A stretch of DNA of 64,000 nt from Saccharicrinis sp. (lineage in GTDB: Bacteria > Bacteroidota > Bacteroidia > Bacteroidales > Marinilabiliaceae). The notes under the pieces were generated by a model. It did not search any database and was not told the origin of the DNA. It saw nothing but the letters and a program-made list of their open reading frames with translations. The stretch covers positions 1-64,000 of the forward strand of contig JAGXIO010000114.1 in assembly GCA_024635555.1 (NCBI GenBank), given 5' to 3'. Positions 11,865-27,005 of the stretch are shown piece by piece. Numbering within the stretch: the stretch's first letter is position 1; every line of letters begins with the position of its first letter. The translations under genes were made by a program, and so were the position numbers.

Positions 11865-12629
11865 CTAATTATTTAACCATTTCTTAAAATCTGAGGCGCG
11901 GTCAATACTTACAATGGTCTCAAACTCATCGTCCGGTTTAGGCTTTATTTCGAGCTTAACACGTGATCGTGAGTAGGCTACCATATTAACAATAGATGTG
12001 ATGTTAATCAGGTATTTGCGATTTATTCTGAAGAATGCAACTGGGTTGAGCATCTTCTCCAATTTATCCAAAGTGAAATCAATATTGTATGAATTTCCTT
12101 GGAAAGTCCTTAGGTAAACGCCCTTATCGAATACAAAGAAATATGCAATTTCAGCCACCTCAACCATTTTTATTTTGGTTCCGATTGAAAATGAAAAACG
12201 TTCTCGATACGTTATATCTTTATTCGTAATCAGATTGTAAAGCGAATGCAAATCGACGGAATTGGTATTTAATCCAGTAAATTGCTGGTACTTTTTCAGT
12301 GCCGATGCCAGTTCTTCATGCACAATTGGTTTTAGGAGGTAATCGATACTCTTTAGCTTAAAAGCCTTAATGGCATATTCATCAAAAGCCGTTGTAAAGA
12401 TTACTGGGCTCGAGATGTTCACCTGCTCGAAGATGGCGAAACTAAGGTCGTCCTCAAGGTGAATATCCAGAAAAATCAAGTCGGGTTCGGGGTTTGATTT
12501 GAACCACTTCACAGATTCGGCAACCGATTCGAGTTCGGCCAGAATTTTAATCTCCGAATTAAAATCCAGAATCATTTTTTTTAATCTTATTGCCGCAAAG
12601 GCTTCGTCTTCTATAATTACAACTTTCAT
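11865..12629 (-). CDS. LytTR-family response regulator
   Basis: A 254-residue regulator with a receiver domain (residues 1-120; Glu7/Asp8/Glu9, phospho-acceptor Asp55 in FLDIHL, Lys near 101 in LLKPI) and a C-terminal LytTR DNA-binding domain (about 145-252, with RINRKYLINI and VSIDRASDFKKWL). It is 30 nt downstream of its sensor kinase gene. A close paralogue is at 24010-24765 and shares the C-terminal FETIVSIDR-DFKKWL. LytTR proteins bind pairs of direct repeats two helical turns apart; four such elements occur at 16771, 19409, 23844 and 26664. Confidence 0.92.
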   Translation of the reverse strand: MKVVIIEDEAFAAIRLKKMILDFNSEIKILAELESVAESVKWFKSNPEPDLIFLDIHLEDDLSFAIFEQVNISSPVIFTTAFDEYAIKAFKLKSIDYLLKPIVHEELASALKKYQQFTGLNTNSVDLHSLYNLITNKDITYRERFSFSIGTKIKMVEVAEIAYFFVFDKGVYLRTFQGNSYNIDFTLDKLEKMLNPVAFFRINRKYLINITSIVNMVAYSRSRVKLEIKPKPDDEFETIVSIDRASDFKKWLNN

Positions 12630-12659: not shown

Positions 12660-14204
12660 TTATTTCAGTAAAGGCAGCTTGGCAATAAATTGATTGTTGG
12701 TTTTGATGAACTCAGGTTTTAGGTCTGATACTAGTGCGTATCTTCGGTTTATATTCTCAAGCCCAACGCCTGTTGAAACAAGTTTTGTTTCACGCAAATT
12801 AAGGTTGTTTACTATGTTTAATCGCAGTTGATCATCAACAAAAATGTCAATTTTAAGTGGTTGAACCTTTGAGAATATATTGTGTTTAATAGCATTTTCA
12901 ATAATTAGCTGAATTGCAATGGGAAGTATCTGATAATCGTAAAAAGAATTGTCAATTTTAAAATTGATAAATAGTTTCTTCATGAATCTTATTTCAAGAA
13001 GGAAAAGATATGAGTTCAAGAATTCTAATTCGGTACTAAGTGAAACAAGGTCCTTTTCCTTGTTTTCCAAAACATATCGATATACTTTAGACAGTTGTTC
13101 GGTGAAAGATTCAGCCAAATCGGGATCAATCTTTATAAGTGAGGTAAGTACATTTAAGCTGTTGAAAAGAAAATGTGGATTTACCTGTTGTTTAAGCACT
13201 TCGAATTGCGATTGCAGATTCTCCTTTTGAACTTTAAGCAGCTGCGTGTTTGTTTCAGTAAGTTGCTTTGTGCGCTCTGCAACACTTTGCTCTAGGGTGT
13301 TATTTATCCGTTCCAATTCTTCTTTTGCTTTTAGTAGTTTTTCCTCTTGCTTTTTCATTTCGGATATATCAATGATAATTCCTCTGCGACCAATAACCTT
13401 ATTGTTACGAAATATGGGAGAGCCAAATATCATAACCGGGCAAAGTGTACCATCGGTTTTTTTTACTGTGTACTCATTAGGCAAAGTCTTAATTGCCTTA
13501 TTTGATTTTTTTATATTCTCAATAACCCTTGGAATATCCTCATCGATAAAGAAATTAAGTGCCGACAGTTTCTTATTAGATTTTTCGGGGTCTTCGAGAC
13601 CGAAAAATTCCTGTCCTGCTTTATTATTAAACAGAATGTTTCCTTCAATATCCAACTCAAAAACTGGTTGAGGAAGAAAGTGCATTAACTCTTTATAGTT
13701 TCTTTCACTTTCAGCAGCGGCAAATTCAGCTTCTTTTCTTCGTGTAATATCAACTATTATTCCGTCCAGGTATGCATGCTCTTCCTTGTCGTTATATATT
13801 CCCTTGCCATTTTCGCTTACCCAAACAACCAGTCCGTTTTTATGCATAAGCCTGTACTCAAACTCATAATGTCTTTTCTCTTTGGTGGCATTAATAATAC
13901 TATTCCTGCAAAAGTCCCGATCGTCCGGGTGAATTATTGAGGCGAAAGTTTTCTCCGCATTTTCAATGAATTCGGATGCGTGGTACCCAGAAATATCAAA
14001 TATTTTTTCGCTAATATACTTCATTGTGTAATGCTCGTCGAGATGGCATCGATAGGCTGCACCGGGAAGGTTTTCCAATATGCTTTTCAGCAACACACGT
14101 TGCTCCTGTAGCTCCCAGGTAACAAGTTCACTTTTTTTTATCTCCGCCTCCAAACGACGGGTTAAATTCATTTCATTTTCGGCTCTGCTTTTTTCTAAAT
14201 CCAT
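12660..14204 (-). CDS. Soluble PAS-PAS LytS-type sensor histidine kinase
   Basis: A 514-residue kinase without membrane helices. Residues 1-35 are helical, then two PAS/PAC units (about 38-155 and 165-290; FEYRLMHKNGLVVWVSE and GRRGIIIDISEMKK mark the PAC ends). A coiled-coil linker (about 290-335) precedes the His_kinase domain with QVNPHFLFNSLN (His344) and a HATPase region IIENAIKHNIF. The architecture implies cytosolic sensing, for example redox or a small molecule, in contrast to the membrane-bound paralogue at 24746. It forms an operon with the LytTR regulator. Confidence 0.9.
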   Translation of the reverse strand: MDLEKSRAENEMNLTRRLEAEIKKSELVTWELQEQRVLLKSILENLPGAAYRCHLDEHYTMKYISEKIFDISGYHASEFIENAEKTFASIIHPDDRDFCRNSIINATKEKRHYEFEYRLMHKNGLVVWVSENGKGIYNDKEEHAYLDGIIVDITRRKEAEFAAAESERNYKELMHFLPQPVFELDIEGNILFNNKAGQEFFGLEDPEKSNKKLSALNFFIDEDIPRVIENIKKSNKAIKTLPNEYTVKKTDGTLCPVMIFGSPIFRNNKVIGRRGIIIDISEMKKQEEKLLKAKEELERINNTLEQSVAERTKQLTETNTQLLKVQKENLQSQFEVLKQQVNPHFLFNSLNVLTSLIKIDPDLAESFTEQLSKVYRYVLENKEKDLVSLSTELEFLNSYLFLLEIRFMKKLFINFKIDNSFYDYQILPIAIQLIIENAIKHNIFSKVQPLKIDIFVDDQLRLNIVNNLNLRETKLVSTGVGLENINRRYALVSDLKPEFIKTNNQFIAKLPLLK

Positions 14205-14289: not shown

Positions 14290-16704
14290 TTATTTCCCAC
14301 TTCTACTTTCTTCCTCACTTGAAGACGTAGAGCGGTTTGCACGGGTTTTGAATTCATTTTTGCCAAAACGATAGCTAAATGAGATATTGAACCTTCGGCT
14401 TTCCCATTCATTTTTCACATCCAGATCCACATTTTCATATTTTGTATATGCACCACCTGTGCCTGTATTAAAAACATCACTCAACGAGACTTTTATAAGC
14501 CCTTTGTCTTTTAGTATTCTTTTTTGAACTCCTAAGTCAATTGAATATTTAGACTTAAACGTGAAGTTACCGTGGAGTTGTTTTGACAAATATAACCCGC
14601 TCACTTCTGCAGCCATTTTATGAGGAAGTGTAAAGCTATTGCTAGCGTTTATCATATAGCTCCATTGACTGAACTGTATGCCCGATGGTAAGTTTGAATT
14701 CACCTCTTTATACATCCCGGTTACTGTGCTATTAATTCGCCACCACCGCTGAATTTCAAATTGCAAGGTTTCCGATAAATTTAAATCTATCGCTGTACCA
14801 AAATTATCATAAGTTTGATAAATAACTCTTGTTTCATCATTTTGATTAATTATTTGAGTGTATATATCGTTGGTGAAATTGTACCCAACGCTTGTCATAA
14901 ACATACTTTTATAATTATGATTTAGTGAAAGTGCATGGGTGTATTGTGGATTGAGGTTAGGATTTCCCAAGTTATAGGTATATGGATCCAGCATCCATAC
15001 AAATGGATTTAAATTGTGATAATTTGGACGCCCAACCCGATAGCTGTATCTTAGGCCAATGTTTTGATTGGGTGTTAATTTTTGCTGAACAAAAACCGAG
15101 GGGAATAACTGCGTATAACTTTTCTTGTCTATTTGATTTATTGAAACAGAATTACCTTTTGATAGGGTATTCTCCATTCTCAATCCAACTTGAATAGTAG
15201 TTTTTTCAAATTGTGCCTTGCCACTTGCATAGACAGCCTGAATGTTTTCGTCGTATAAAAATTTGTCATTCTGATTGAAAAAGCCCACCATGGAGGCTTT
15301 GTTATTAGTTTTTACCCAGCTGCTTTTAAGCCCCGCTTCAAAAGAATAGATTTTATTAATTGGATGACCATAATCCACTTTGGCCGAAAAAATATCAATA
15401 TCACTATTTTGAAGACTTAGCAAATTAATTGTTTTGTATAAATTATTTTCGTTAGCATCAAAATAGTTGCTTGTTTGATTGCCATTTGATTTAAATCCCA
15501 AATTAGCGTAATCGGCATCAACAATAATAAAACGGCCAAGTGTATCAATATCCCATTTGTAATTTATATTAAAAGTATTTTGGTTCCAATTGAATTCGCG
15601 ATCAGCATTATTTATCAAAGAAGAATCAACTGTACCATTGCTGTTAATAAATTGTGTGGTTCCATCATCTTCTACATCGTTAAACCCCGAATTTCCTTTT
15701 ATCATTATACTTAAGACATGGTTTTTTGCCAAATAATAATCTGCGCCTGTCTTATAATTGTGGGCATTTCCTTCGTTATTGTTTTCATTTTTTGAAATCT
15801 GCACAACACCGTTCATTTCTTGGCTTAAAAATCGACGTTTGGCTTCCATACTGTTCCAACCTGTCCAATCATAAAATGAATAATCACCATACACATTTAG
15901 TTTTCCTTGATTAAAATTTAAATTCAATCCTGCATTTTCACCCACCGATCGTGTAAAAGTTAAACCAGTATTTACATTGCCATTAAAACCGGGGGCTCGG
16001 TTATGGTTTGTTTTAATATTAATAATCCCGGCATTCCCTTCTGCATCAAAACGGGCCGATGGGCTTTCTATAATCTCAATATTCTTAACATCTTTTCCCA
16101 ACATCCCTTTAAGCATACTTGCTAGCTCTTTTGAAGAAACCTGGGTGGGTTTATCATCAATCATAATCACAATTCCTGCTTTCCCTTTCAGAGATATATT
16201 ATCGTCGTTATCAATAACAACGCCTGGAACCTTTTTAAGAATTTCATACACATTTTCAGAGGCTGTTGTTATGGATGCATTTGGGTTAATAACGGTTTTA
16301 TCAACCGATTGCTCTATAAATTCTATCTTGGCAGCCACCACTACTTCATCAATCTGTTGATTTGACTCTTTTAAAAATACAACTTTTTCGATGGTTTGGT
16401 TTTTGCCATCAATAGTAAGATATTCTTTTTCATTGGTTTCATAACCTATCATCCGCACCGAAAGATGATATTCACCGGCAGTAACTTTATCAATTCTATA
16501 TTCTCCTTTTTCATTGCAAACCGTCCCTTTTTCAATATTGCCGGTTTTGGAATCCAAGAGTGCAACGGTAGAAAATGCGATTGGTTTTTTTTCAGTATCC
16601 AAAACGCGCCCTTTTACAATAAATGTTGCGCTTTCTGCATAAACAAAAACAGGTACAAGGACAAAAACTGCCACTAACAGATAATGAGAAAAATTTGCTT
16701 TCAT
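14290..16704 (-). CDS. TonB-dependent receptor-like outer-membrane beta-barrel protein
   Basis: An 804-residue outer-membrane protein: signal peptide (about 1-23, ending VYAES), CarboxypepD_reg-like domain (about 27-115), plug-like domain (about 135-230, with LKKVPGVVIDNDDNISLKGK and IEIIESPSARFDAEGNAGIINI), then a long beta-barrel ending in FNISFSYRFGK. It belongs to the outer-membrane beta-barrel family (OMP_b-brl_3) common in Bacteroidota; the cargo is unknown. The C-terminal tail is unusual in running past the barrel with a Ser/Glu-rich stretch. Its promoter region is about 85% identical to that of the next receptor (19342) and carries the LytTR-like site. Confidence 0.88.
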   Translation of the reverse strand: MKANFSHYLLVAVFVLVPVFVYAESATFIVKGRVLDTEKKPIAFSTVALLDSKTGNIEKGTVCNEKGEYRIDKVTAGEYHLSVRMIGYETNEKEYLTIDGKNQTIEKVVFLKESNQQIDEVVVAAKIEFIEQSVDKTVINPNASITTASENVYEILKKVPGVVIDNDDNISLKGKAGIVIMIDDKPTQVSSKELASMLKGMLGKDVKNIEIIESPSARFDAEGNAGIINIKTNHNRAPGFNGNVNTGLTFTRSVGENAGLNLNFNQGKLNVYGDYSFYDWTGWNSMEAKRRFLSQEMNGVVQISKNENNNEGNAHNYKTGADYYLAKNHVLSIMIKGNSGFNDVEDDGTTQFINSNGTVDSSLINNADREFNWNQNTFNINYKWDIDTLGRFIIVDADYANLGFKSNGNQTSNYFDANENNLYKTINLLSLQNSDIDIFSAKVDYGHPINKIYSFEAGLKSSWVKTNNKASMVGFFNQNDKFLYDENIQAVYASGKAQFEKTTIQVGLRMENTLSKGNSVSINQIDKKSYTQLFPSVFVQQKLTPNQNIGLRYSYRVGRPNYHNLNPFVWMLDPYTYNLGNPNLNPQYTHALSLNHNYKSMFMTSVGYNFTNDIYTQIINQNDETRVIYQTYDNFGTAIDLNLSETLQFEIQRWWRINSTVTGMYKEVNSNLPSGIQFSQWSYMINASNSFTLPHKMAAEVSGLYLSKQLHGNFTFKSKYSIDLGVQKRILKDKGLIKVSLSDVFNTGTGGAYTKYENVDLDVKNEWESRRFNISFSYRFGKNEFKTRANRSTSSSEEESRSGK

Positions 16705-16730: not shown

Positions 16731-16804
16731 CAAATTTATATGGATGCTACCTGTTAGGAAATATAAAAATGCTGAGGGTGTTTATTTGCAAGTTGAATGA
16801 CTTG
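16731..16804 (-). promoter_or_regulatory. LytTR-like direct-repeat site and -7 element
   Basis: On the minus strand, half-site CAAGTCATTCAAC (16804-16792) and half-site AAACACCCTCAGC (16783-16771) are 21 bp apart. The -7 element TAAATTTG (16738-16731) begins 45 nt after the start of the proximal half-site. The ATG follows at 16704. Spacing is identical in three other promoters in the window. Confidence 0.65.
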
Positions 16805-16939
16805 ATTCAGACCTTAAAAGGAAATGTGGCATTTCACTGGACGGTATTAAGGAGCCAAGTTTAAACTTAAATATCTTTGGATATCATGTTCTTTTTAAAA
16901 TTCAACCGTGAAAAATTAACAAATTTGAATGCTTAAGTT

Positions 16940-19342
16940 CTAAAACTCAATCTTGTAACCAATTGAGGGGAAAGGCATTTTCATTTTATCGATTATTACG
17001 TCCTTTGTAATGAAGTCGTAGTAAGGATCACCATAATCAGGCTGTAGTAGCGCATTTTTTATCATAAAATACCAAACTCCAGTATAGTTCTTTTTGTTAA
17101 CCCTATACGTTATTGACAAATCTACACCTGTCGAAGAGGGGAACTGGTTTACGAATGCTTTTGAATTATCAGGTTTATACATTTGAGCGGCTATAGATTC
17201 TTCGTACAAAGCCGGGGTATACCTCAATCCTCCCATATAAGTTACTTTTGCACTTATTCCCAGTACATTTTTGTTTTTTATCATCCATTCTTTTCCTGCA
17301 AGCAGGTTAACAACATGTCCTCTATTAAAGGCAGTATTATGTTCTGTCCCATCGCCACCTGCATATTTTGAGTCAAATAAAGTTGCTGTGAATAGGTAAT
17401 AATAGCCGTCTTTAAGAAAACGCTCCACAGTAACATCAACACCATAATTTTTTCCTGTTCCGACGTTTTCCAATTTACGGTTAATTGCCCAGTTGGAAGT
17501 AATATTTATAATTGAAAACGAACCGTTTGCATATACCGGAATATCCTCTAATATTTGGTAATATGGTTCTATTTTAATTCGCATTACATCACTCAATTTT
17601 CGGCTGTATCCCAGAACAAAATGATGTGATTTCATAAAATCAAGATTTTTGTTTGGCATTTCAATCGTGCCGTTATTGTTTACTTGCGAATAGTAAGTGC
17701 GTAGCTCTTCCATTTGAGAATGCAGACCATAAGCAAAACTCAATTCATCGTTTTGTGAAGTGTTCCAGCTTAAACCTGCTCTTGGTTCAAAAGAGGCTTT
17801 CTCGTTCACATCAAGATACATTGAATGAAAACCAATATTTGTTGATAGGCTAGGTAAAAGGTCTATTTTGAATTGGGTAAACGCTTGGGCAGAAAATTCT
17901 GTGCCACTATTATTAACAAAAGTTATCATTTCCTCTGGGTTATCCCTGAATGCTTTATCAAGCCTGTTATCGAAGAATAAGCTATTGAGTGTAATACCTG
18001 TTCGCGAGCTTACCCGTTGGCTAAATTTATGGTTCACTGTTGACCTGAAAGTATATTTTCCCTCAGTACTTTTAATATTATCGGTTGGAAGTAATCGTGA
18101 ATCAAATGTGTATTCTTTTTTGTCCATTCCATATCTCATGCCATCGGCACTAATTGTTGTGTGCAGGTATGTTTTTGTTCCAACAGAAATACGGTGCGAA
18201 AGTCCAACTGCCCCAAAGCGGTTGAAATAATCTTGCCCTGTACGATCATAGTCGGTTTTCCAATTTAAGGTTTCAGAATCAGCTTCTTTTTTATTCGTAT
18301 CATCAGCTCCCATAGCCCAAAATGAGAATGTTCCGGAACGCGTTCTAGGAAAATCGAACTTGAATGTTAAATCCTGAAAAGTTGGTAAATTTGGGAAATT
18401 TGTCAACTTGCCCAAAAGTGCAAGGGTTGAGTAACGATAATTGAATAGGTATGTTGATTTTTTACCTTTTGCAAATGGTCCTTCAGCAGAGAAATCAATA
18501 CCACTTGTTCCTATTCCAGCAGTGTATTCTCTTTTTTCCGAGTTTCCAGTTCGCATTTTAATATCAAACACTCCAGAGACGGCATTCCCATATTCAGCCG
18601 GAAATGCTCCTGTATAGAAATCAGAATTTCGGAGCATTTGGTTGCTTAATACTGTATAACCACCACCCCCAATAAAATCGACATTTGGAAAGTGAAAAGC
18701 AGCAGGAATATCTACTCCTTCGAACCGCCATAAAACCCCTCTTGGTGAATTCCCTCTGATAATAATAGCATTATTTGTTGTTTGAGTAGTGGCAACTCCG
18801 GCAAAGGCTGATGCCAAACGAGCGGGGTCATCCATCCCTCCGGCATAACGACTGGTTTCTTCAACACTAAAAGTTCGTGCACTCAATGTTGCCATTGAAT
18901 TTACAGGCTTATCTTTGTTCGTATTAGCTCTAGCTACTACTTCATTTAGCAATAACGACGACTCATTTAATTCAATATTCAGCACCACTTCTTTTCCTGA
19001 ACTTACAAGAATTTCTGAGGCTGTGAAAGGTTCATATCCAATATAACTTATTTTAAAGTTATGCCTTCCAACAGGAACCCCTTCCAGACGGAAATTCCCA
19101 TCAAGGCCGGTGATTGTTCCTTTAATGGGTTGAAAACCATCAACAATGATAGTTGCCCCAATAAGTGGGGTCTTTGAGTCGGCATCCATAATTTCACCTC
19201 TAACGGTTTGAGTTAATGATTGCGAATACAAACCTGAGTGAATTGTTAAAACTGCAATTAAAAATATTACAATTTTTTTCATCATTTGTTGCAAACCAAA
19301 TTGCTTATAAATGCCTGTATTTGTTTTGTTTAAAGCTTTCAT
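16940..19342 (-). CDS. TonB-dependent receptor with CarboxypepD_reg-like domain
   Basis: An 800-residue outer-membrane receptor. A hydrophobic export signal lies at residues 21-40 (MKKIVIFLIAVLTIH), so translation may start at Met20 or Met21 (19285/19282). The upstream ATG at 19342 is kept because ATGAAAGC there is conserved with the start of the 14290 receptor. Then follow a CarboxypepD_reg-like domain (about 45-135), a plug domain (about 150-260, with RGNSPRGVLWRFEGVDIPA and NAVSGVFDIKMRTG) and a barrel ending IGYKIEF. The substrate is unknown. The shared promoter with its neighbour suggests common LytTR control. Confidence 0.9.
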   Translation of the reverse strand: MKALNKTNTGIYKQFGLQQMMKKIVIFLIAVLTIHSGLYSQSLTQTVRGEIMDADSKTPLIGATIIVDGFQPIKGTITGLDGNFRLEGVPVGRHNFKISYIGYEPFTASEILVSSGKEVVLNIELNESSLLLNEVVARANTNKDKPVNSMATLSARTFSVEETSRYAGGMDDPARLASAFAGVATTQTTNNAIIIRGNSPRGVLWRFEGVDIPAAFHFPNVDFIGGGGYTVLSNQMLRNSDFYTGAFPAEYGNAVSGVFDIKMRTGNSEKREYTAGIGTSGIDFSAEGPFAKGKKSTYLFNYRYSTLALLGKLTNFPNLPTFQDLTFKFDFPRTRSGTFSFWAMGADDTNKKEADSETLNWKTDYDRTGQDYFNRFGAVGLSHRISVGTKTYLHTTISADGMRYGMDKKEYTFDSRLLPTDNIKSTEGKYTFRSTVNHKFSQRVSSRTGITLNSLFFDNRLDKAFRDNPEEMITFVNNSGTEFSAQAFTQFKIDLLPSLSTNIGFHSMYLDVNEKASFEPRAGLSWNTSQNDELSFAYGLHSQMEELRTYYSQVNNNGTIEMPNKNLDFMKSHHFVLGYSRKLSDVMRIKIEPYYQILEDIPVYANGSFSIINITSNWAINRKLENVGTGKNYGVDVTVERFLKDGYYYLFTATLFDSKYAGGDGTEHNTAFNRGHVVNLLAGKEWMIKNKNVLGISAKVTYMGGLRYTPALYEESIAAQMYKPDNSKAFVNQFPSSTGVDLSITYRVNKKNYTGVWYFMIKNALLQPDYGDPYYDFITKDVIIDKMKMPFPSIGYKIEF

Positions 19343-19368
19343 TTTTTTTTGATTTCATATTATGAAAG

Positions 19369-19442
19369 CAAATCTATATGGATGCAAGCTGTTGGGAAAT
19401 TTAAAAATGCTAAAAGTGTTTATTTGCTGGTTGAATGACTTG
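19369..19442 (-). promoter_or_regulatory. LytTR-like direct-repeat site and -7 element
   Basis: Minus strand: CAAGTCATTCAAC (19442-19430), AAACACTTTTAGC (19421-19409), -7 element TAGATTTG (19376-19369). Half-site spacing (21 bp) and distance to the -7 element (45 nt) equal those at 16731-16804. Confidence 0.65.
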
Positions 19443-19777
19443 TTTTAAACCTTAAATGAATTGGAAAAGTTGTCAGAAGCTTTTTCTGAAAGGGATCTAA
19501 GACAAATTCGTATATTTATTGTTTCCCCTTTTATTTCGAATGAGTGTCCAGTTGAATATTGAGCTTGGTTTTGATTGTTGGACGTTTGGTTTTCTCTCAA
19601 TCACTCCAGTTTCAAGGAATTTTGTTTTTCGTGCAGTAATTTCAATCTTTCCTCCGGAAGTAGGTATTTCATGAATTCTACAAAAAGAAAGCAGTTCAGT
19701 TTTTAGCTAATAAAAACTTTGAAAACTACCAAGCGAAATAGTACTGTGAAGTTCTGGTCGTTTCATGCTTAGTTTGT
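19443..19777. other. Intergenic spacer without recognised gene
   Basis: No ORF of note. On the minus strand two frames are partly open for 20-60 codons, but neither gives a recognisable protein. It could hold decayed coding sequence; I cannot assign it. Confidence 0.3.
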
Positions 19778-20695
19778 TTAATGTATTGTTACCGAAGCAA
19801 ATGTTCTTTTTACTCCTTTCTTGTATTTTATTGCAGGATAACCAAATGCCACAAATAAGCCTTCGCGTGAAGTAAACTTAATGCCATATTTTTCCCTAAA
19901 TATACGAGCTTTACTTCCATTCTGAATCAATGGATGAACTGCACCAAGCATACAGGTTCCGAGACCCAGAGATTCAGCGGCAATCATGGCATATGTGGCA
20001 GCAATAATTGGATCAGCAGGGTCTGTATAGGGTGAACCATAAAAATACATGGCCAATGGGGCATCGTAATTAACTACGTTTATATTTTGCTTCATTTTTT
20101 CGGGATACACTTTGAAAAGAGGTCTGACAAACCCCTTAAACATTTCATCGTTCGCTTTGCCCCAGAATGGACGCATAAGAGCCAGAAACCAAGCAGAGAC
20201 AAACCATTTCATATTTTCCAAATATTTACAAAAATCTTTCGCAAAAGCCCTTATTTTCTCCTTACTATCGAGCACTAAAACATTAACATCCGATGGAGGC
20301 AGTCCCATTGGTGCTGTTTTAGCTGCCAGCAAAATTTTATCAATAACTGCTGGTTCAATAGCTCTGTCCTGAAATTTTCGAATACTTCGCCTTCTATTAA
20401 ATAGCGACAAAATTTGGCTGTAGTCGGCAGCGCTTTCCTTTGGAGGTAAATCGAATAAATCGTCGGGGCTAATAGTTCTGCCAAATATTTCAATTGCCTC
20501 TGTGGGGCAAATTGCCATACAGTGGCCACAACCAATACATCCAAAAATGGAGGTTTCACTTTTGCAGGCTTTTCCGTTTTGCAATTTCAGACATAAATCG
20601 CTGCAAACATTCACACACGATCCGCAACCAGTGCATTTTTCACGGTTAATTTGGATATCAGCAGCGTCTTTTGCTCTTGATGTTGGTATGGCCAT
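19778..20695 (-). CDS. Ferredoxin-nitroreductase fusion protein
   Basis: A 305-residue protein with an N-terminal 2x[4Fe-4S] ferredoxin domain (about 12-70; CTGCGSCVNVCSDLC and CIGCGHCMAICP) fused to an FMN-dependent nitroreductase domain (about 88-300; RRSIRKF start, AAESLGLGTCMLG). Such fusions use reduced ferredoxin to drive FMN reductions in anaerobes; the physiological substrate is unknown. It stands alone between the TonB receptor and the DUF6544 gene, separated by more than 150 nt on each side. Confidence 0.88.
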   Translation of the reverse strand: MAIPTSRAKDAADIQINREKCTGCGSCVNVCSDLCLKLQNGKACKSETSIFGCIGCGHCMAICPTEAIEIFGRTISPDDLFDLPPKESAADYSQILSLFNRRRSIRKFQDRAIEPAVIDKILLAAKTAPMGLPPSDVNVLVLDSKEKIRAFAKDFCKYLENMKWFVSAWFLALMRPFWGKANDEMFKGFVRPLFKVYPEKMKQNINVVNYDAPLAMYFYGSPYTDPADPIIAATYAMIAAESLGLGTCMLGAVHPLIQNGSKARIFREKYGIKFTSREGLFVAFGYPAIKYKKGVKRTFASVTIH

Positions 20696-20870
20696 ATTGA
20701 TTGGTTTATATATTTTTAAAACTAAGATGTTTTATTGGTTTTTGGTAGAAGCACATTACCGCACGTTAGTCCTCGACGGAAAGCAAAATGAGGTATAGAA
20801 ATGTAACAGACCACTAATGGCTGAAATTCCTTAGAGTATATGAATAGTCTTGAAATTAGGGTACTCACTA

Positions 20871-21974
20871 TTAGTCCTCAAATTTTATCAAATTATACTT
20901 CACACTTTTGTATTCTAATTCGCCGTAGGTAAAATCTCCATCAGGTTTCTGATAGATTAGTTTTGCTTTGCCTGGCAAAAAGTATCCGTTTATGATGCGG
21001 TAGTTTGTAACTGGGGTCGCCCAGGGATAATTGTCATATTTTTTACCGTCGGTGTCGTATCGGTCGTTACTTATAAAGTTCACAAGTTCACCTTCTGCAT
21101 TAAAATAGAGTGCAGCACTTACGCTGATGCTTCCATTTTTAAATATTGCGTTGACAGTTGTGTCGTCAATGACTTCCCATTTTATTCTTCTGTCAATTAA
21201 TGTTGCAGGAGCAATAAAACACATATCGTTTAGCAGCGTAACCGTTTCTGCCTGATTCATTTTATCTCCTTTAGCATCTACAACTTTAAACCAGTTTAAA
21301 AGCCTGACCTCAAAGGTGGCAATTTCGTTTTGATAAAGATGCAGACCAGTTGCTGGCAGTCCCATTTTGCTCGCTGTCATATAAAAATAACGTGATGGTT
21401 TCCGGTAGAAGTTGTATTGAACTGATTGGAGCTTCATATATGCGTCTTCGGGCTTAGAGCGCATTCCTCCGACGAATTCTGCCCTGAAATTTGTTATTTT
21501 TGGTTGTCCTACCGACTTGGTATAGTAAAGATACTTTTGCACTATCGGCGGTAAATTCGCCATGTCGTTTTCAGTTAATATATCTGTAGAAAGCGTATTG
21601 TTTTCTGAAAAATCCTTTTTCACACGACTTGTAAACTCACTCTGTAACAAATACGAACCAAGGCCCACCAATGCAACTGAAAGAATAATCAGATTGGGAA
21701 ATGTTCCAAATTTGGCATCTTTCCAAAAGTAAATGATGAGTATCTGGGATACTATAACAGCAACAAGTCCAACAAGCCAAGCATATTTGTTACCCAAAAA
21801 ATAAAGTGTGCCATAAAGCAGAAATAATCCAGTTACAATCAGCCACACTATTCCTGTTGGTTTTGAAATGGAAAGAGTTAACTCTTTAGCTTCCTGAAAG
21901 CCGAAAGCTTTTACAAATCCAAGTAAATGGATAAGTCCGTGTAGTGATACAATTATTAAAAAAATTATTCTCAT
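20871..21974 (-). CDS. DUF6544-like membrane protein
   Basis: A 367-residue protein. About four membrane helices occupy the first 115 residues (near 2-22, 40-60, 67-85 and 92-112), followed by a soluble beta-rich domain containing NLPPIVQKYLYYTKSVG and YPWATPVTNYRIINGYFLPG, which I recall from DUF6544/DUF6920 proteins. Function unknown. It lies 12 nt after the alpha/beta hydrolase gene and is probably in the operon that starts at the LytTR-like promoter near 23811. Confidence 0.65.
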   Translation of the reverse strand: MRIIFLIIVSLHGLIHLLGFVKAFGFQEAKELTLSISKPTGIVWLIVTGLFLLYGTLYFLGNKYAWLVGLVAVIVSQILIIYFWKDAKFGTFPNLIILSVALVGLGSYLLQSEFTSRVKKDFSENNTLSTDILTENDMANLPPIVQKYLYYTKSVGQPKITNFRAEFVGGMRSKPEDAYMKLQSVQYNFYRKPSRYFYMTASKMGLPATGLHLYQNEIATFEVRLLNWFKVVDAKGDKMNQAETVTLLNDMCFIAPATLIDRRIKWEVIDDTTVNAIFKNGSISVSAALYFNAEGELVNFISNDRYDTDGKKYDNYPWATPVTNYRIINGYFLPGKAKLIYQKPDGDFTYGELEYKSVKYNLIKFED

Positions 21975-21986
21975 AGTTTTTGTATG

Positions 21987-23087
21987 TTATTTGTTATCCG
22001 CTAAAGTATGATTTCCCGTCATAACATCTGTCAGTAATATTTTCGCGACTTTTTCACGTTCCTCAAAAATCGGACTATGGGCTGAATTTTCAAATGTGTA
22101 AAACCCTTTTACGGGAGCCTTTATCTTGTTGAAATAGTCCTTTGCCAGATCATACGAAACGGTGTAATCATAGATGCCGTGAAAAAAATAGACCGGAATT
22201 TTAAGTTCAGGAACTTGTTTAGCTAAATTAGTTGCCAGAATCGTATCCCACAGCGGGTGAACACCAGCCTTGGCTTTAGCTCGCCACAAATTAATTTTCT
22301 CAGTAAATGTGTAATCCCTGCATGTAATCGATGGAAAAAAAATACCGGTTATTATTGAATTCATATTACGTGTTGTACCAATTCCAAGACTGTGCATTGT
22401 CTGGTCGCGCAGTTTGAGGTATCCATCAGGAATAACATCTGTAACCGGTACAGCCTCCAGTTTTCGTACCATTTTCCTGTTCCCTGCAACCCTGTATTTC
22501 TCAAGCATATATTCGTAAGCCAATCTTTCTGATTTTAAGTGGTCCGACATCTGGCCAACCCCGATGTAAGCAAAATATAGCTCCGGTGTCCTTGCTGCTG
22601 CCTGGATGCCAAAGAAGGTTCCCCCTGAACGCCCCATGAGGTAAATCTTTTCCTTCCCAAAACGGGTACGGAGGTAATTTGTTAGCTCTTTTGTGTCGGT
22701 TATAATTTGAACCAAGTTCATGGGGTCAGCCGGTATGCTGGAGTTGTACGATAGTCCTGAGCCACGCTGTTCCCACCACACCACGGTGAAATAATCTTCA
22801 AGCCCGGTAGGGTACTTCTGAGTGAGAAAATAATCGGGTATGCCACCGTGAAGGTAAAGCAGAACGGGATTTTCCTGGTTTTTACTCTTGATAAACATTC
22901 CCTGTCGTACGCCTCCTATTGTAATAAATATTTTTTCGGAAATGCTTCCTTTTAAGGTCGTTCCATTTTTATCTTTAAACGGCACAGGCTTTCCGGGACT
23001 AAATAGAAGTAAAGTTACTGTCATAATAAGTAGTATCCCAAATAAAATTACAAACATGTATTTTAAAGTTTTAATCAATTCTTTCAT
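21987..23087 (-). CDS. Membrane-anchored alpha/beta hydrolase
   Basis: A 366-residue hydrolase with an N-terminal membrane anchor (about 9-29). The oxyanion region YLHGGIP, WWEQRGSGLS, nucleophile elbow GRSGG (Ser in place of the usual GHSWG context), acid in GIYDYTV and catalytic His in ENSAHSP are all present, so it should be active. The layout resembles prolyl-aminopeptidase-like hydrolases, but substrate cannot be inferred. It is 25 nt downstream of the beta-barrel gene at 23113 and 12 nt upstream of the DUF6544 gene. Confidence 0.8.
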   Translation of the reverse strand: MKELIKTLKYMFVILFGILLIMTVTLLLFSPGKPVPFKDKNGTTLKGSISEKIFITIGGVRQGMFIKSKNQENPVLLYLHGGIPDYFLTQKYPTGLEDYFTVVWWEQRGSGLSYNSSIPADPMNLVQIITDTKELTNYLRTRFGKEKIYLMGRSGGTFFGIQAAARTPELYFAYIGVGQMSDHLKSERLAYEYMLEKYRVAGNRKMVRKLEAVPVTDVIPDGYLKLRDQTMHSLGIGTTRNMNSIITGIFFPSITCRDYTFTEKINLWRAKAKAGVHPLWDTILATNLAKQVPELKIPVYFFHGIYDYTVSYDLAKDYFNKIKAPVKGFYTFENSAHSPIFEEREKVAKILLTDVMTGNHTLADNK

Positions 23088-23112
23088 GATTGAATTGTTC
23101 TATAATTAATTT

Positions 23113-23760
23113 TCAGCTATCGCAATTACAAGTACTTACAAGAATAGCAATATAGCAGGAGAAACCATTTAGTTTTTTGTTGCTCAAATAAGAGAAATTT
23201 ACCGGACTTACATGACGATATGTTAACCCAAAATCAAGCTTGATTAACTTACCTAATGAAATCTGGCTGTATATTGAGGGTTCAAGAATGGGAAACATTT
23301 TAAAATCACCGTTTTTTGTTTTAGGCACAGTTTCTTTAAAGCCAGCCCCACATCCAACCAATAAATTAGTTCCAAATTTAATTTTATCCCCAGGGTATAA
23401 AATATAGCCAAATTCAAGACCGCCATAGCCCATTTTAAAAAATTCATAAATACCTTCTTCGCTACTCTCAAGTTCAATGCCCTTTGGCATTCCCCAACCA
23501 CCACCTCCAAAAGTATAGCGATTATTAAAGGTTGCAGAACCCCTTCCTCCTGTCATTAAAGTAAATTGATTGTTTACGTTCGTAAATAGCAAACCTGCGC
23601 CACCGAAAGCCAATGAGGTCATTTTAAAAGTTCTTGTTTTTAGAGGTAAGCCATTTCTATGTAATGAATCTAACTGACCTTTGTCCTGTGCGTTTAAGGC
23701 ATGGTAGAAGAATAAAAGTGTTGTAATTGAAATTATTATTGATTTTCTAAAAATTTTCAT
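23113..23760 (-). CDS. Small secreted, likely outer-membrane protein
   Basis: A 215-residue protein with a signal peptide (about 1-24, ending LNAQ). The mature part is rich in Gly and aromatic residues with alternating beta strands (FGGAGLLF, MGYGGLEFGYILYPG, IKLDFGLTYRHV), suggesting an 8- to 10-strand barrel or surface beta protein. The C-terminus ends in CNCDS rather than a terminal aromatic residue, which is atypical for a barrel. It is the first gene of a three-gene unit with the hydrolase and DUF6544 genes, behind the LytTR-like promoter. Confidence 0.65.
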   Translation of the reverse strand: MKIFRKSIIISITTLLFFYHALNAQDKGQLDSLHRNGLPLKTRTFKMTSLAFGGAGLLFTNVNNQFTLMTGGRGSATFNNRYTFGGGGWGMPKGIELESSEEGIYEFFKMGYGGLEFGYILYPGDKIKFGTNLLVGCGAGFKETVPKTKNGDFKMFPILEPSIYSQISLGKLIKLDFGLTYRHVSPVNFSYLSNKKLNGFSCYIAILVSTCNCDS

Positions 23761-23803
23761 AACATTCAGTATTAGTGAAATGATTCATTTAATTAATTTA
23801 TAT

Positions 23804-23877
23804 CAAAACTAATATTTGCCATGAGCCTAATAAAATTAAAGATTATGGGAGTGTATTTTTAAAATGTGTAAGTGGTT
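23804..23877 (-). promoter_or_regulatory. LytTR-like direct-repeat site and -7 element
   Basis: Minus strand: half-sites AACCACTTACACA (23877-23865) and ATACACTCCCATA (23856-23844), sharing A--CACT--CA-A, 21 bp apart. The -7 element TAGTTTTG (23811-23804) begins 45 nt after the proximal half-site start. Outside these elements the sequence is not similar to the other three promoters, so the match is not recent duplication. Confidence 0.6.
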
Positions 23878-24009
23878 TTTGAAAGGTTGAACACGAAACA
23901 AAATAGTCAGATTATATAGAGTGTTTGATTTTAGATTTCTTAGTTATTCTGTTTCAATGCAATCTGTTCTATTCAATTCAAATCCATCTAAAATATTTAA
24001 GGATAAAAC

Positions 24010-24765
24010 TTAATCGGATAACCACTTTTTAAAATCGCCAGAACGGTCGATGCTAACAATAGTTTCAAACTCATCATCGGCCTTGGGTTTTAGTTCTAAT
24101 TTCACGCGCCCTCTGGAATAGGCAACCATTTTTGAAATGGATTCCATGTTTACCAAAAATTTTCGGTTAATGCGGAAAAATGAAGCGGGATTAAGCAAGG
24201 TTTCCAATTTATCAAGTGTAAACTCCACCGGATATAATTTTCCTTCAAAAGTTTTCAGATAAATCATTTTTTCTAAAACAAAGAAGTAAGCAATTGCGGT
24301 CACTTCAATTTTTCTTATTTTCTCACCAATCTGAATTAAAAACCTTTTTTTAAATTCAGGCTCTTTCCCTTGAATGTTTGCTAAAATCGATTCAAAATCG
24401 ATTTGAAAAGCAGATTTTAACGATTGAAGTTTATTGAGGCTTTCTGTTAAATCGCTAATACGAATAGGTTTTAGCAAATATGCGATACTGTTAAGTTGAA
24501 ACGAGCGAATTGCATACTGATCGTAAGCCGTTGTAAAAATTACGGGGGTATTCACCGAAACCTGATCGAAAATGCTGAAACTAATCCCATCGGACAATTG
24601 AATGTCGAGAAAGATTAAATCGGCTGTGTTTTGAAGCAACCATTTTGTAGATTCAGTAATGGATCCCAGTTTTGCTAGTATATTGATTTTTGGATCTATT
24701 TCATGCAGCATATCCTCTAATTTCTCGGCTGCAAATTTTTCGTCTTCAATTATTAGTACGTTCAT
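24010..24765 (-). CDS. LytTR-family response regulator, second copy
   Basis: A receiver domain with phospho-acceptor Asp54 (IFLDIQL) plus a C-terminal LytTR domain (RINRKFLVNM, FETIVSIDRSGDFKKWL), paralogous to 11865-12629. I chose the ATG at 24765 (MNVLIIEDE) because it begins the receiver fold exactly; the in-frame ATG at 24816 would add 17 residues inside the kinase gene. With this start the gene overlaps the kinase gene end by 20 nt, implying translational coupling. Confidence 0.92.
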   Translation of the reverse strand: MNVLIIEDEKFAAEKLEDMLHEIDPKINILAKLGSITESTKWLLQNTADLIFLDIQLSDGISFSIFDQVSVNTPVIFTTAYDQYAIRSFQLNSIAYLLKPIRISDLTESLNKLQSLKSAFQIDFESILANIQGKEPEFKKRFLIQIGEKIRKIEVTAIAYFFVLEKMIYLKTFEGKLYPVEFTLDKLETLLNPASFFRINRKFLVNMESISKMVAYSRGRVKLELKPKADDEFETIVSIDRSGDFKKWLSD

Positions 24766-25831
24766 CGTTTTCCGGATTAATAAGGGGTAGTTTTGCGATA
24801 TAATGATTGGTTTCAATCAAAAAAACAGGTTCTTTATCTGAAATCATTGAGTAGCGTTTGACTAAGTTTTTTAATCCCAGTCCTGTTGAATTGCCTTTTG
24901 ATATTCTTGGTTGAATATTGTTTTTTATAAGCAGAATTTGGCCTTCATTATATATTTCAATTCGAAGTGGTTTTGATTCGTTAACAATGTTATGCTTAGT
25001 TGCATTTTCCAAGACCACTTGAAGCGATAGGGGAGGAAGCAATAAATTAAGTAAATCAGCAGGGATATTTATAGTGTAGCTCAAATCATTTCCATAACGA
25101 ATTTGTTGAAGAAAAAGATAGGATCTTGTAAAATCGAGTTCTTTACCTATGGTTGCCACCGGCTGTTCAATGGTTTCCAAAACATAGCGATAGATGTGCG
25201 AAAACTCATCGATAAATTGTTGTGCTTTTTTAACGTCCTTATTTATTAATCCCGACAATACGTTTAAGCTATTGAACATGAAATGAGGGTTGATTTGACT
25301 TTTTAGCACTTCAAACTTTATTTGTGATAGCTCGGTCTGTAAATCATCGGCAATTTGTTTGGTGTACCTGCTTTCATTAAAAGCAATCCAACCTTCGAGG
25401 ATTGCCATGACAAAAATATTTACCACCGAAAAAATTAGTGCGTTGTTCACAAGTACGTTCACTAAGTCACGTTCATAAGCATTTATTGAATGGGCAAAGA
25501 GTGTAAAAAGTATTGAAACAATGACAGCTAAAATGATTGAAAAAACCAACTGGAAAGAAATTCGTTGTACAATTTTTCGCCCCCAGGGACAGGTTTTATT
25601 TAAATACTGAATCATGAATAAATCGGGGTAGGCAATTAAAAAGCTGGCCAACAAGCTGAGCACTGTCCCTCTCATTAAACGCAAAAGGAAATGTTGCACA
25701 TTTTCGAGGATATAATATCCGCTTAGGTGATTGTAACTAATCACAATGATTTGTATGCACACCGAAAGACAGAACAACAAAATCAGTAATTTTTTAAAGG
25801 AGAAAAAATGGTGTATTTGTTGAAATATCAT
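24746..25831 (-). CDS. LytS/YpdB-partner-type membrane sensor histidine kinase
   Basis: A 361-residue kinase with about four N-terminal membrane helices (near 14-33, 45-70, 88-112 and 124-146) and almost no extracellular loops, then the His_kinase motif QINPHFMFNSLN with His183, followed by VVLENATKHNIV (N-box) and STGLGLKNL (G-box). Partner of the overlapping LytTR regulator. The minimal loops suggest it senses the membrane or a co-receptor rather than a soluble periplasmic ligand. Confidence 0.9.
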   Translation of the reverse strand: MIFQQIHHFFSFKKLLILLFCLSVCIQIIVISYNHLSGYYILENVQHFLLRLMRGTVLSLLASFLIAYPDLFMIQYLNKTCPWGRKIVQRISFQLVFSIILAVIVSILFTLFAHSINAYERDLVNVLVNNALIFSVVNIFVMAILEGWIAFNESRYTKQIADDLQTELSQIKFEVLKSQINPHFMFNSLNVLSGLINKDVKKAQQFIDEFSHIYRYVLETIEQPVATIGKELDFTRSYLFLQQIRYGNDLSYTINIPADLLNLLLPPLSLQVVLENATKHNIVNESKPLRIEIYNEGQILLIKNNIQPRISKGNSTGLGLKNLVKRYSMISDKEPVFLIETNHYIAKLPLINPENDERTNN

Positions 25832-25898
25832 GGCTCAAAATTTAAACATTAAATATAACAGATTTATTGACCCCGTGTGTGTGCGTTATTATTAGAAT

Positions 25899-25929
25899 TT
25901 CACCCGCTGACTTTCCTTCAGCGGGTGAA
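25899..25929. repeat. 12-bp perfect hairpin with nearby CGGGTGAA copies
   Basis: TTCACCCGCTGA (25899-25910) pairs perfectly with TCAGCGGGTGAA (25918-25929) around a 7-nt loop. CGGGTGAA recurs at 25960-25967, and a close copy CGGTGAATAA lies at 25980-25989. There is no T-run on either strand, so it is a poor terminator. It lies between the small beta-barrel gene and the LytS kinase gene. Confidence 0.7.
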
Positions 25930-25995
25930 TAAAACCGAAAAGTCCTGCAAGTCATTCATCGGGTGAACTGAAAGTTACTCGGTGAATAATGAAGA

Positions 25996-26583
25996 TTAGA
26001 ATTTTTTAAGAAGTCCAATCCTTAGTTGGAGATAATTCAAATTGAGCGGCACATTAACTCCTTCGTTTTCAACCTCTCTGTTTAGTGAGTTGAATTTTAC
26101 GCCAGGAGTCAAACTCCAGTTTTTTCCTAATTTAAAATCAAATCCGCCAGCTAGTTGCCAACCTAATCCATGTCCACTATCATGCGTGATGTCACCATCA
26201 GAATTTTCAATTTCGATGTGATTATTCAAACCTCCTGCCCGCAAATAATAAGATGTTTTGCTTTGTCCAATCGGGTGTTTGAATTGAAGTCCGAAAACAT
26301 ATCCCGTTTCTTCGAAACATACATCGTTTCCTGCAAAAGAGTAGTCTGCTCCAAATTTGTTCCAACCCCATCCAGCATAAACTCCGATATGTGGCATAAA
26401 GCGGTAATGAAAGATGCCTTCGAAACCAAATCCCGGATTTAAAGTTGACCCTTCTAGTTTTTTTGCGGCAACAGATGCACCTGTGCTAAGTTCAAATCCA
26501 TAACATTTTGAGTTATCCTGAGCTAACGTATTAATAGAGAATAGGATAACTAATGCGATGCTTAAAAATGCTTTTGTTTTCAT
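25996..26583 (-). CDS. Small outer-membrane beta-barrel protein
   Basis: A 195-residue porin-like barrel: signal peptide (about 1-21, ending NTLAQ), alternating amphipathic strands (GFEGIFHYRF, GVYAGWGWNKFG, YYLRAGGLNN, LGWQLAGGFDFKL) and a C-terminal Phe (LLKKF), the classic barrel end signal. I place the start at 26583 (MKTKAF), not at the in-frame ATG 26634, because the -7 element at 26624-26631 would make the longer form lie upstream of the transcript start. A LytTR-like site controls it. Confidence 0.82.
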   Translation of the reverse strand: MKTKAFLSIALVILFSINTLAQDNSKCYGFELSTGASVAAKKLEGSTLNPGFGFEGIFHYRFMPHIGVYAGWGWNKFGADYSFAGNDVCFEETGYVFGLQFKHPIGQSKTSYYLRAGGLNNHIEIENSDGDITHDSGHGLGWQLAGGFDFKLGKNWSLTPGVKFNSLNREVENEGVNVPLNLNYLQLRIGLLKKF

Positions 26584-26623
26584 AGTCTTAATTTTTAAAT
26601 GCTTTTTTGAAAAAATTACGAAA

Positions 26624-26697
26624 CAAAAGTACATGCGGATACTTCCCGAAAAGAATAATTGTTGTTGAGGGTGTTTTTAGAATAGATGAAAGTGAGT
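26624..26697 (-). promoter_or_regulatory. LytTR-like direct-repeat site and -7 element
   Basis: Minus strand: ACTCACTTTCATC (26697-26685) and AAACACCCTCAAC (26676-26664) agree at 8 of 13 positions and are 21 bp apart. The -7 element TACTTTTG (26631-26624) begins 45 nt after the proximal half-site start, as in the other three promoters. Confidence 0.65.
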
Positions 26698-26772
26698 TTA
26701 CATGTATTGAATGTGTAGTTTCAAAACCCAAAGATTGCCCTAGGTCATACCCAAAGTGCTCTTTCAAAGGGA

Positions 26773-26788: not shown

Positions 26789-26815
26789 GAGTTGGAGTGT
26801 CTTCTAAAATCATGA

Positions 26816-26847
26816 AAGCCGCTGTCAAAATTAATTGACAGCGGCTT
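26816..26847. repeat. 13-bp stem hairpin
   Basis: AAGCCGCTGTCAA (26816-26828) pairs with TTGACAGCGGCTT (26835-26847), loop AATTAA. On the minus strand it is followed by a weak T-rich stretch and could terminate the DUF3078 transcript. On the plus strand it precedes the leader-like ORF. Confidence 0.7.
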
Positions 26848-26877
26848 CCAACCTTTAACCAAACCTAACCCTAAACT

Positions 26878-26925
26878 ATGAGAAAATTTAAGTCTTTAAA
26901 TATTTTTAACAACCGTGATGGTTGA
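26878..26925 (+). CDS. 15-codon leader-like ORF
   Basis: MRKFKSLNIFNNRDG then TGA, preceded by AACC-rich text (AACCTTTAACCAAACC) of the kind I associate with leaders ahead of SusC-type receptor genes. It is followed by a short hairpin with a T-run (27006-27030). No plus-strand gene follows, so it may be an orphan leader left by a lost receptor locus. Coding status is doubtful. Confidence 0.2.
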   Translation: MRKFKSLNIFNNRDG

Positions 26926-27005
26926 TTGTGTTATCCATATAATTACGATTACAAATATATAATCCATTTTTAAAACCACAAAATAAAAAACGATAAAAAT
27001 GTGTT

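Follow-up and report, generated by a model that had tools for sequence, protein, structure and literature searches.

Results and Discussion

A 64,000-nucleotide stretch of Saccharicrinis sp. (contig JAGXIO010000114.1; hereafter the window, with a G+C content of 38.6%) raises the question of what reads a repeated DNA motif that recurs upstream of several of its genes. A first-pass annotation had proposed that four promoters, named here by the start coordinates of their genes (16704, 19342, 23760, and 26583), share a pair of 13-bp half-sites at a fixed distance from a TAnnTTTG -7 element and form a regulon controlled by LytTR-domain regulators. Our analysis indicates that the repeat arrays are very probably the operators of two paralogous LytTR response regulators of the same locus, RR1 and RR2, which would activate outer-membrane genes and probably also their own operons. 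The partner histidine kinases are referred to as HK1 and HK2.

Geometry of the promoter arrays

The distal and proximal 13-mers were located 66 and 45 nt, respectively, 5′ of TAnnTTTG at all four promoters, each on the minus strand, so the half-sites lie 21 bp apart and the coordinates and distances first given for them are correct. When the eight defined letters of the 13-mer consensus were scored, the distal and proximal copies matched at 8 and 8 letters at 26583, 5 and 8 at 16704, 5 and 7 at 19342, and 6 and 6 at 23760. Subsequent scoring used the 9-bp core ACnCnnTCA (positions 3–11 of the 13-mer; six scored letters per core), of which the proximal copy starts at -43 and the distal copy at -64 relative to the -7 element in all four promoters. 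The two half-sites originally described for each promoter are thus present, but a third copy another 21 bp 5′ had been missed; it is perfect at 26583 (6/6) and weaker at 23760 (4/6), 19342 (4/6), and 16704 (3/6). The sites are as follows.

26708..26716, minus strand: outermost (third) half-site ACACATTCA of the 26583 promoter, 21 bp 5′ of the distal copy; conserved in orthologue promoters
26687..26695, minus strand: distal half-site TCACTTTCA of the 26583 promoter
26666..26674, minus strand: proximal half-site ACACCCTCA of the 26583 promoter
26624..26631, minus strand: -7 element TACTTTTG of the 26583 promoter; TAnnTTTG in 41/45 orthologue loci
23888..23896, minus strand: weak third half-site TCGTGTTCA of the 23760 promoter (4/6 core letters)
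23867..23875, minus strand: distal half-site CCACTTACA of the 23760 promoter
23846..23854, minus strand: proximal half-site ACACTCCCA of the 23760 promoter; match no. 4 of model R3 (see below), with an equally spaced array at the orthologue in genome G188
23804..23811, minus strand: -7 element TAGTTTTG of the 23760 promoter
19453..19461, minus strand: weak third half-site ATTCATTTA of the 19342 promoter (4/6 core letters)
19432..19440, minus strand: distal half-site AGTCATTCA of the 19342 promoter
19411..19419, minus strand: proximal half-site ACACTTTTA of the 19342 promoter
19369..19376, minus strand: -7 element TAGATTTG of the 19342 promoter
16815-16823, minus strand: weak third half-site of the 16704 promoter (3/6 core letters)
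16794..16802, minus strand: distal half-site AGTCATTCA of the 16704 promoter
16773..16781, minus strand: proximal half-site ACACCCTCA of the 16704 promoter; match no. 3 of model R3, with an equally spaced array at the orthologue in genome G207
16731..16738, minus strand: -7 element TAAATTTG of the 16704 promoter

The window contains 106 TAnnTTTG sites (55 on the plus and 51 on the minus strand). Five of them stand out with scores of 12–16 for the pair of 13-mers, the next best reaching 8, and these five are the four promoters and a weaker site at 26959. A scan of both strands for the ACnCnnTCA pair with the -7 element (at most one mismatch, shift of at most 1 nt) likewise returned five matches; the four promoters were the best, and the lower fifth was at 8011, within the gene at 7447–8337.

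The four promoters had been described as otherwise dissimilar. This holds for 26583 and 23760, which lie outside the promoter family of the other two, but not for 16704 and 19342, which are 85% identical over about 110 bp (82% by global alignment). Since these two are near-duplicates, the number of independent promoters in the window is three rather than four.

The weaker array-like site (window 26790-26960, minus strand) has the cores ATACGATTA/ACATTTTTA, with TATATTTG at 26959, and no evident gene downstream. A strong inverted repeat was read by eye near it, at about 26800-26845. The site and the repeat could possibly represent a small RNA; a search of Rfam at gathering thresholds gave zero matches across the window.

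Conservation of the array in orthologous promoters

Orthologues of the 26583 gene were selected on protein similarity, irrespective of the motif. The first search gave seven genomes besides the own genome, of which two weak matches (G015 and G070) were left out. In the remaining five same-family orthologues, the cores occupied equal positions, with 6+6, 6+6, 6+6, 5+5, and 4+4 of the 6 letters conserved. The promoter in genome G071 has three copies that are almost identical; the locus also encodes orthologues of HK2 and RR2 (71% and 81%), 3′ of its outer-membrane gene. A scan of genome contigs with these proteins extended the set to 45 loci, including the five already taken. Most belong to Bacteroidales/Bacteroidetes, together with three Salinimicrobium, a metagenome-assembled genome labelled Phaeodactylibacter, and one labelled Ignavibacteriales.

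TAnnTTTG was found 25–75 nt 5′ of the ATG in 41 of the 45 loci. Removal of L258 and L262-L264 (no TAnnTTTG in range) and of the near-duplicates L235, L239, and L245 left 38 non-redundant promoters. The mean core score of these promoters (maximum 6) was 4.66 at -64, 4.24 at -43, and 3.87 at -85, and all other offsets averaged 1.52 (standard deviation 0.36; highest 2.39). The summed score of three copies reached at least 10/18 at the exact offsets in 37 of the 45 loci, compared with 0.9% of the other offsets of the same promoters. The period also emerged without any consensus: between 90 and 30 nt 5′ of the -7 element, identity was 0.495 at a lag of 21, compared with 0.20–0.32 at all other lags in the range 8–39. 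The distal and proximal copies within a promoter agreed at 227 of 342 letters (shuffled, 182 ± 6.9; reached in 0 of 20,000 shuffles), a comparison in which the relatedness of the promoters is uncorrected. Copies that are more alike within than across promoters are expected if a single protein reads all of them.

The 35 promoters used for modelling could be aligned without gaps over 93 columns, with the consensus ACACnTTCA - 12 - ACACnTTCA - 12 - ACACnTTCA - 34 - TACTTTTG and a T tract 23 to 21 nt 5′ of the -7 element. The invariance of TAnnTTTG in this alignment is a condition of selection.

Co-occurrence with the regulators was also evident. A regulator of the RR1/RR2 type is encoded in 34 of the 45 loci, and a 35th has RR2 on a longer stretch (L336), matched to its contig by length. 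Within the fetched stretches, loci bearing RR1 and loci bearing RR2 share the same array. At the three Salinimicrobium homologues (38–45% identical), the array is absent, and the fetched 12.4–12.6 kb contain no such regulator. What the sequences show directly is the presence of the arrays, how they are spaced and conserved, and their association with this regulator clade.

Recovery of the other targets by models and pattern scans

Model R3 was trained on the 35 promoters of the 26583 orthologue group only, including that of the window; L247, L250, L252, and L257 were left out because at the exact offsets their array was missing, weak, or displaced by 1 nt. In the own genome, with scoring applied to 150 of 5009 first-look candidates, the ranking was 26583 (in training), a site on contig C72 (E value, 1.5e-7), 16704 (6.7e-7), 23760 (9.7e-7), C239 (3.7e-5), and 19342 (7.0e-5). 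R3 was blind to 16704, 23760, and 19342 and placed them third, fourth, and sixth. C239 had also been the second match of the earlier model R1; it lies in coding sequence, has a period of 18 bp, and is a false positive. The matches C100, G088:C15, G082:C130, G072:C56, and G062:C14 were inspected and not accepted.

Relatives carry arrays at these targets as well. The 16704 orthologue of G207 (60% identical protein) is preceded by TCATCTTAA/TCTCCCTCA/TCACCTTCA at equal spacing, and the locus continues with a 23760 orthologue, a hydrolase, HK2 (76%), and RR2 (87%). The 23760 orthologue of G188 has an array at equal spacing. Homologues of 19342 in G009 and G043 lie directly before a LytTR kinase-regulator pair and have arrays; that of G043 is shifted by 1 nt, and that of G009 counts only if the gene starts at an internal ATG, as its -7 element overlaps the longest reading frame. 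Weaker arrays were also found close to HK2 in G071 and G207.

A pattern of two cores plus the -7 element was scanned across the own genome, with the reversed pattern as the control. The first-pass annotation had named such a genome-wide scan among its checks. At two or fewer mismatches, four matches (16704, 26583, 19342, and one on contig C72) were found against zero controls; at three or fewer there were 13 matches against seven controls, little more than the control level. The 23760 promoter has three mismatches and is not separable from the control by pattern alone; it therefore requires other evidence. A loose pattern of one half-site with a variable gap to the -7 element was uninformative (56 matches vs. 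55 controls). Across 61 genomes, 41 matches and 19 controls were obtained at two or fewer mismatches. Seven matches remained at one or fewer; the five inspected precede genes of outer-membrane type, and the others are G011:C28 and G038:C15. When 612,149 bases (the fetched loci together with the window) were scanned, 15 matches had at least 12/18 core letters and a perfect -7 element, all preceding outer-membrane-type genes, an exported protein beside HK1/RR1 homologues, or the orthologue of the gene at 7447-8337. These sequences were fetched for having a LytTR gene or site, so the result bears on specificity and not on abundance.

Three further occurrences were observed. A three-copy array in G071 (L217:2965-3054) precedes an orthologue (56%) of the window gene 7447-8337; the window scan found no such array before the window gene itself. 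In G043 (L219:854-908), the three-copy array CCTCGTTCA/ACACATTCA/ACACCTTCA lies beside a different, distantly related kinase-regulator pair. The regulator of that pair is 26% identical to RR2, a hint that the architecture may reach beyond the RR1/RR2 clade. A promoter of the 16704 family on C72 and in G005 (L106:8762-8854; L153 near 9969-10120) precedes a different TonB-type gene. Because a 36-residue piece 64% identical to the 16704 protein lies just 3′ of the G005 promoter, this promoter may be a relic of a lost 16704-like gene.

Genes and regulators of the locus

The gene order is 26583 (outer-membrane barrel), HK1, RR1, 23760, alpha/beta hydrolase, DUF6544, ferredoxin-nitroreductase, 19342, 16704, HK2, and RR2. 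The genes of the proposed circuit are as follows.

25996..26583, minus strand: outer-membrane beta-barrel protein of 195 residues (OMP_b-brl; E value, 2.6e-10 for the longer open reading frame)
24746..25831, minus strand: HK1, histidine kinase of the His_kinase type (PF06580; E value, 1.5e-24)
24010..24816, minus strand: RR1, LytTR-domain response regulator (PF04397 and PF00072; first in-frame ATG at 24765)
23113..23760, minus strand: probably exported protein of 215 residues, target of the second site (no Pfam match)
16940..19342, minus strand: TonB-dependent-receptor-like outer-membrane protein, target of the third site (PF13715, PF13620; Plug below the curated cut-off)
14290..16704, minus strand: OMP_b-brl_3/CarboxypepD outer-membrane protein, target of the fourth site (PF14905; E value, 4.7e-101)
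12660..14204, minus strand: HK2, histidine kinase with PAS domains (PF06580, PF08447, PF13426)
11865..12629, minus strand: RR2, paralogous LytTR response regulator (LytTR domain 65% identical to that of RR1)

The start of the 26583 gene was set at 26583 rather than at the reading-frame start, 26634. All four targets had been called exported or outer-membrane proteins. Pfam supports this for 26583 and 16704; the 19342 protein has CarboxypepD domains and a TonB-plug match that falls under the curated cut-off, and the exported status of the 23760 protein rests on its N-terminus, read by eye. The earlier statement that two LytTR genes lie within positions 16,731–26,697 applies to RR1; RR2 lies outside that range.

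Both regulators contain PF04397 and PF00072 above the cut-off, a receiver-LytTR architecture, and both kinases are of the His_kinase type. The own genome (5.33 Mb, 259 contigs) has nine LytTR matches. The LytTR domains of RR1 and RR2 are 65% identical; of the seven others, the six included in the comparison share no more than 38% identity with either. A search of solved structures, made with RR1 alone, returned mainly receiver domains.

HK2 has 514 residues in the window and 698–708 in its orthologues in G071, G266, and G207. The long orthologues carry, N-terminal of the HK2-matching part, an extra segment 44–48% identical to HK1, which is apparently missing from the window copy. Between the 26583 gene and HK1 (window 25832-25995), a hairpin was read from the sequence. 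A hairpin with a T tract 3′ of the outer-membrane gene was detected in 11 of 36 sequences, the window being negative, compared with 4 of 108 shuffled controls; a terminator or attenuator is possible at this position.

Comparison with known LytTR systems

Canonical LytTR sites consist of two 9-bp direct repeats, mostly 12 bp apart and strongly biased to a position 10 bp upstream of -35 (PMC6193735). The present arrays have 9-bp direct repeats with a 12-bp gap (period 21), within the 10–13 bp typical of LytTR half-sites, and this geometry agrees with the original claim that LytTR proteins bind direct repeats about two turns apart. The proximal core ends 35 nt and the TTT tract starts 23 nt before TAnnTTTG, which leaves 11 bp between them and places the half-sites, like LytTR operators, about 10 bp upstream of -35/-33. 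The arrays resemble those of the HdrRM and BrsRM LytTR Regulatory Systems (LRS), which show autoregulatory positive feedback, in repeat length, gap, and promoter position (PMC6193735). However, an LRS regulator has no receiver and is held by a membrane inhibitor, whereas RR1 and RR2 combine a receiver with LytTR and are accompanied by histidine kinases, so the circuit falls outside the LRS definition. LRS and canonical sites also have two copies, and the present array often has three.

Triple repeats have been described for RcoM1 and CoxC, whose LytTR-bound operators consist of three direct repeats about two helical turns apart (PMC11347149). This layout is shared through the -85 copy of the orthologues; in the window, it is perfect at 26583 only. 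The RcoM1 and CoxC operators differ in having 8-bp repeats (TTCNNGCA or TTNNNGCN) and occur in Paraburkholderia and Afipia, and CoxC is a repressor (PMC11347149). RcoM and CoxC are moreover one-component, carbon monoxide-responsive regulators with their own sensor domain, unlike the receiver-LytTR proteins RR1 and RR2 (PMC11347149).

Within Bacteroidota, LRS-like promoters have been predicted in B. thetaiotaomicron and B. ovatus, with 11-bp repeats ending in TCA located 11 bp upstream of a -33 motif, followed after 19 bp by TATCTTTG (PMC6193735). The distance from the proximal start to the -7 element totals 45 nt there, as in the window. These promoters, which are predictions only, differ in a period of 22 instead of 21, two copies, a transmembrane regulator, and an NfeD/DUF2154 partner (PMC6193735). 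Bacteroidota promoters of the Sigma-ABfr type have a -7 element TAnnTTTG and a -33 element TTTG (PMC7366714). The present promoters share the -7 element and have a TTT tract 23 to 21 nt before it, but the fourth letter of the -33 element (the G of TTTG) is not conserved.

Among the excerpts returned by a search of open-licence literature, there was no defined LytTR regulon for Bacteroidales, and the only Bacteroidota LytTR sites were the two predicted LRS-like promoters (PMC6193735). In the light of these sources, 9-bp repeats 12 bp apart upstream of a promoter are a standard LytTR site, and triple repeats are known from RcoM1 and CoxC. We take as new the regulon itself, the three-copy form with a kinase-linked regulator, and the depth of conservation.

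Proposed mechanism and alternative explanations

From these observations we infer binding, activation, autoregulation, an upstream signal, and the assignment of the regulators to the promoters. Each LytTR domain would contact one half-site with the core ACACnTTCA, usually followed by n-C. Because neighbouring half-sites are offset by two helical turns (21 bp), a row of two or three regulator subunits would be aligned on one face of the DNA and, located just 5′ of the -33 T-tract of a TAnnTTTG promoter, could recruit RNA polymerase. Such an activator is indicated by where the array lies, by its period of two turns, and by the published behaviour of LytTR proteins. On signalling by the kinases, the regulators would switch on 26583, 23760, 19342, and 16704 and would probably raise their own expression too; autoregulation with positive feedback is likely, given that the genes with arrays lie in front of or beside those for the kinases and regulators. 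In both the window and the G207 locus, outer-membrane barrels occur together with a nitroreductase, a ferredoxin-flavodoxin-like protein, a hydrolase, and small proteins, and this gene content suggests a possible envelope or redox role for the circuit.

The published geometry, the presence of the regulator clade in 34 of the 45 loci, and the third, fourth, and sixth ranks given by R3 make a LytTR regulon, as originally proposed, by far the best reading. Several results nevertheless weigh against it. L258 has a regulator and a free array (14/18) but no TAnnTTTG in range, L252 lacks both a regulator in its fetched stretch and a significant array, and the 26583 orthologues L227, L255, and L260 have weak arrays (10/18 each) near LytTR genes. 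The 19342 homologue of G050, near a LytTR gene, has a pair score of 6/12, and that of G011 (L071), also near a LytTR gene, has a weak array or none, as judged by eye and from the lack of a match in the 612,149-base scan. The models are imperfect as well: the E values of R3 are loose, the coding match C239 outranks 19342, a match at E 0.01 or better occurs in 51 of 100 relatives (few of them inspected), and R1, built from six promoters, puts 19342 only 24th. G188 has its array but no RR1/RR2-type regulator within the 18.5 kb fetched, and G005 (90% complete) has a 16704-type promoter, possibly a relic, with a best RR1 match of only 41% identity. Finally, residue-to-base co-variation across 31 regulator/site pairs, in which 30 of 38 loci gave a regulator and relatedness is uncorrected, yielded no convincing specificity code.

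It is improbable that the sites are repressor operators that keep the outer-membrane genes off until a signal releases them. Among mechanisms this is the main rival, although one would expect a repressor site to overlap with the promoter. CoxC provides the precedent of a LytTR repressor on three direct repeats, but its operator overlaps the -35 box (PMC11347149), whereas the present array ends about 11 bp 5′ of the -33 T-tract, an upstream position at which most LytTR activators bind (PMC11347149, PMC6193735). We give marginally less weight still to the idea that the repeats are read by a different regulator, or by another LytTR regulator of the own genome, and are merely co-conserved with RR1 and RR2. 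The G005 promoter without a close RR1/RR2 orthologue, the G188 array without such a regulator nearby, and the nine LytTR matches of the own genome would fit this idea; the regulators in 34 of the 45 orthologue loci, the joint absence of regulator and array from the three Salinimicrobium homologues, and the LytTR-type length and spacing of the half-sites argue for RR1 and RR2 instead.

Two simpler explanations are already contradicted, and we consider both extremely unlikely. Promoter duplication alone, with no regulatory site, draws on the 79–85% identity of the 16704, C72, and G005 promoters to that of 19342 over about 97–112 bp. Against it, 26583 and 23760 are outside that family, orthologue promoters keep mainly the half-sites, the -33 T-tract, and the -7 element while their spacers vary, and other genera have the array in front of different genes. 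A chance motif in AT-rich promoters would accord with the 13 matches against seven controls at three mismatches, the only level at which 23760 is found, but not with the conservation in orthologues (the offset peaks, the arrays in 37 of 45 loci, and the lag of 21) or with the ranking by R3.

Implications for Bacteroidales

Within the interpretation of the arrays as RR1/RR2 operators, a bolder proposal, which we hold tentatively, is that the two kinase/LytTR pairs, one kinase with and one without PAS domains, act on shared three-subunit arrays and together constitute a single interlocked, self-amplifying switch for a local set of outer-membrane genes, conserved across Bacteroidales. Either pair might suffice to carry the circuit because, in the stretches fetched from relatives, the same array is accompanied by RR1 or by RR2. 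If the arrays are indeed operators of these regulators, they would provide operator sequences at base level whose placement with respect to -33 and -7 is conserved in dozens of genomes, together with matched regulator sequences for studies of LytTR specificity. The circuit would then be testable in a relative whose promoter has a perfect 9-bp repeat.

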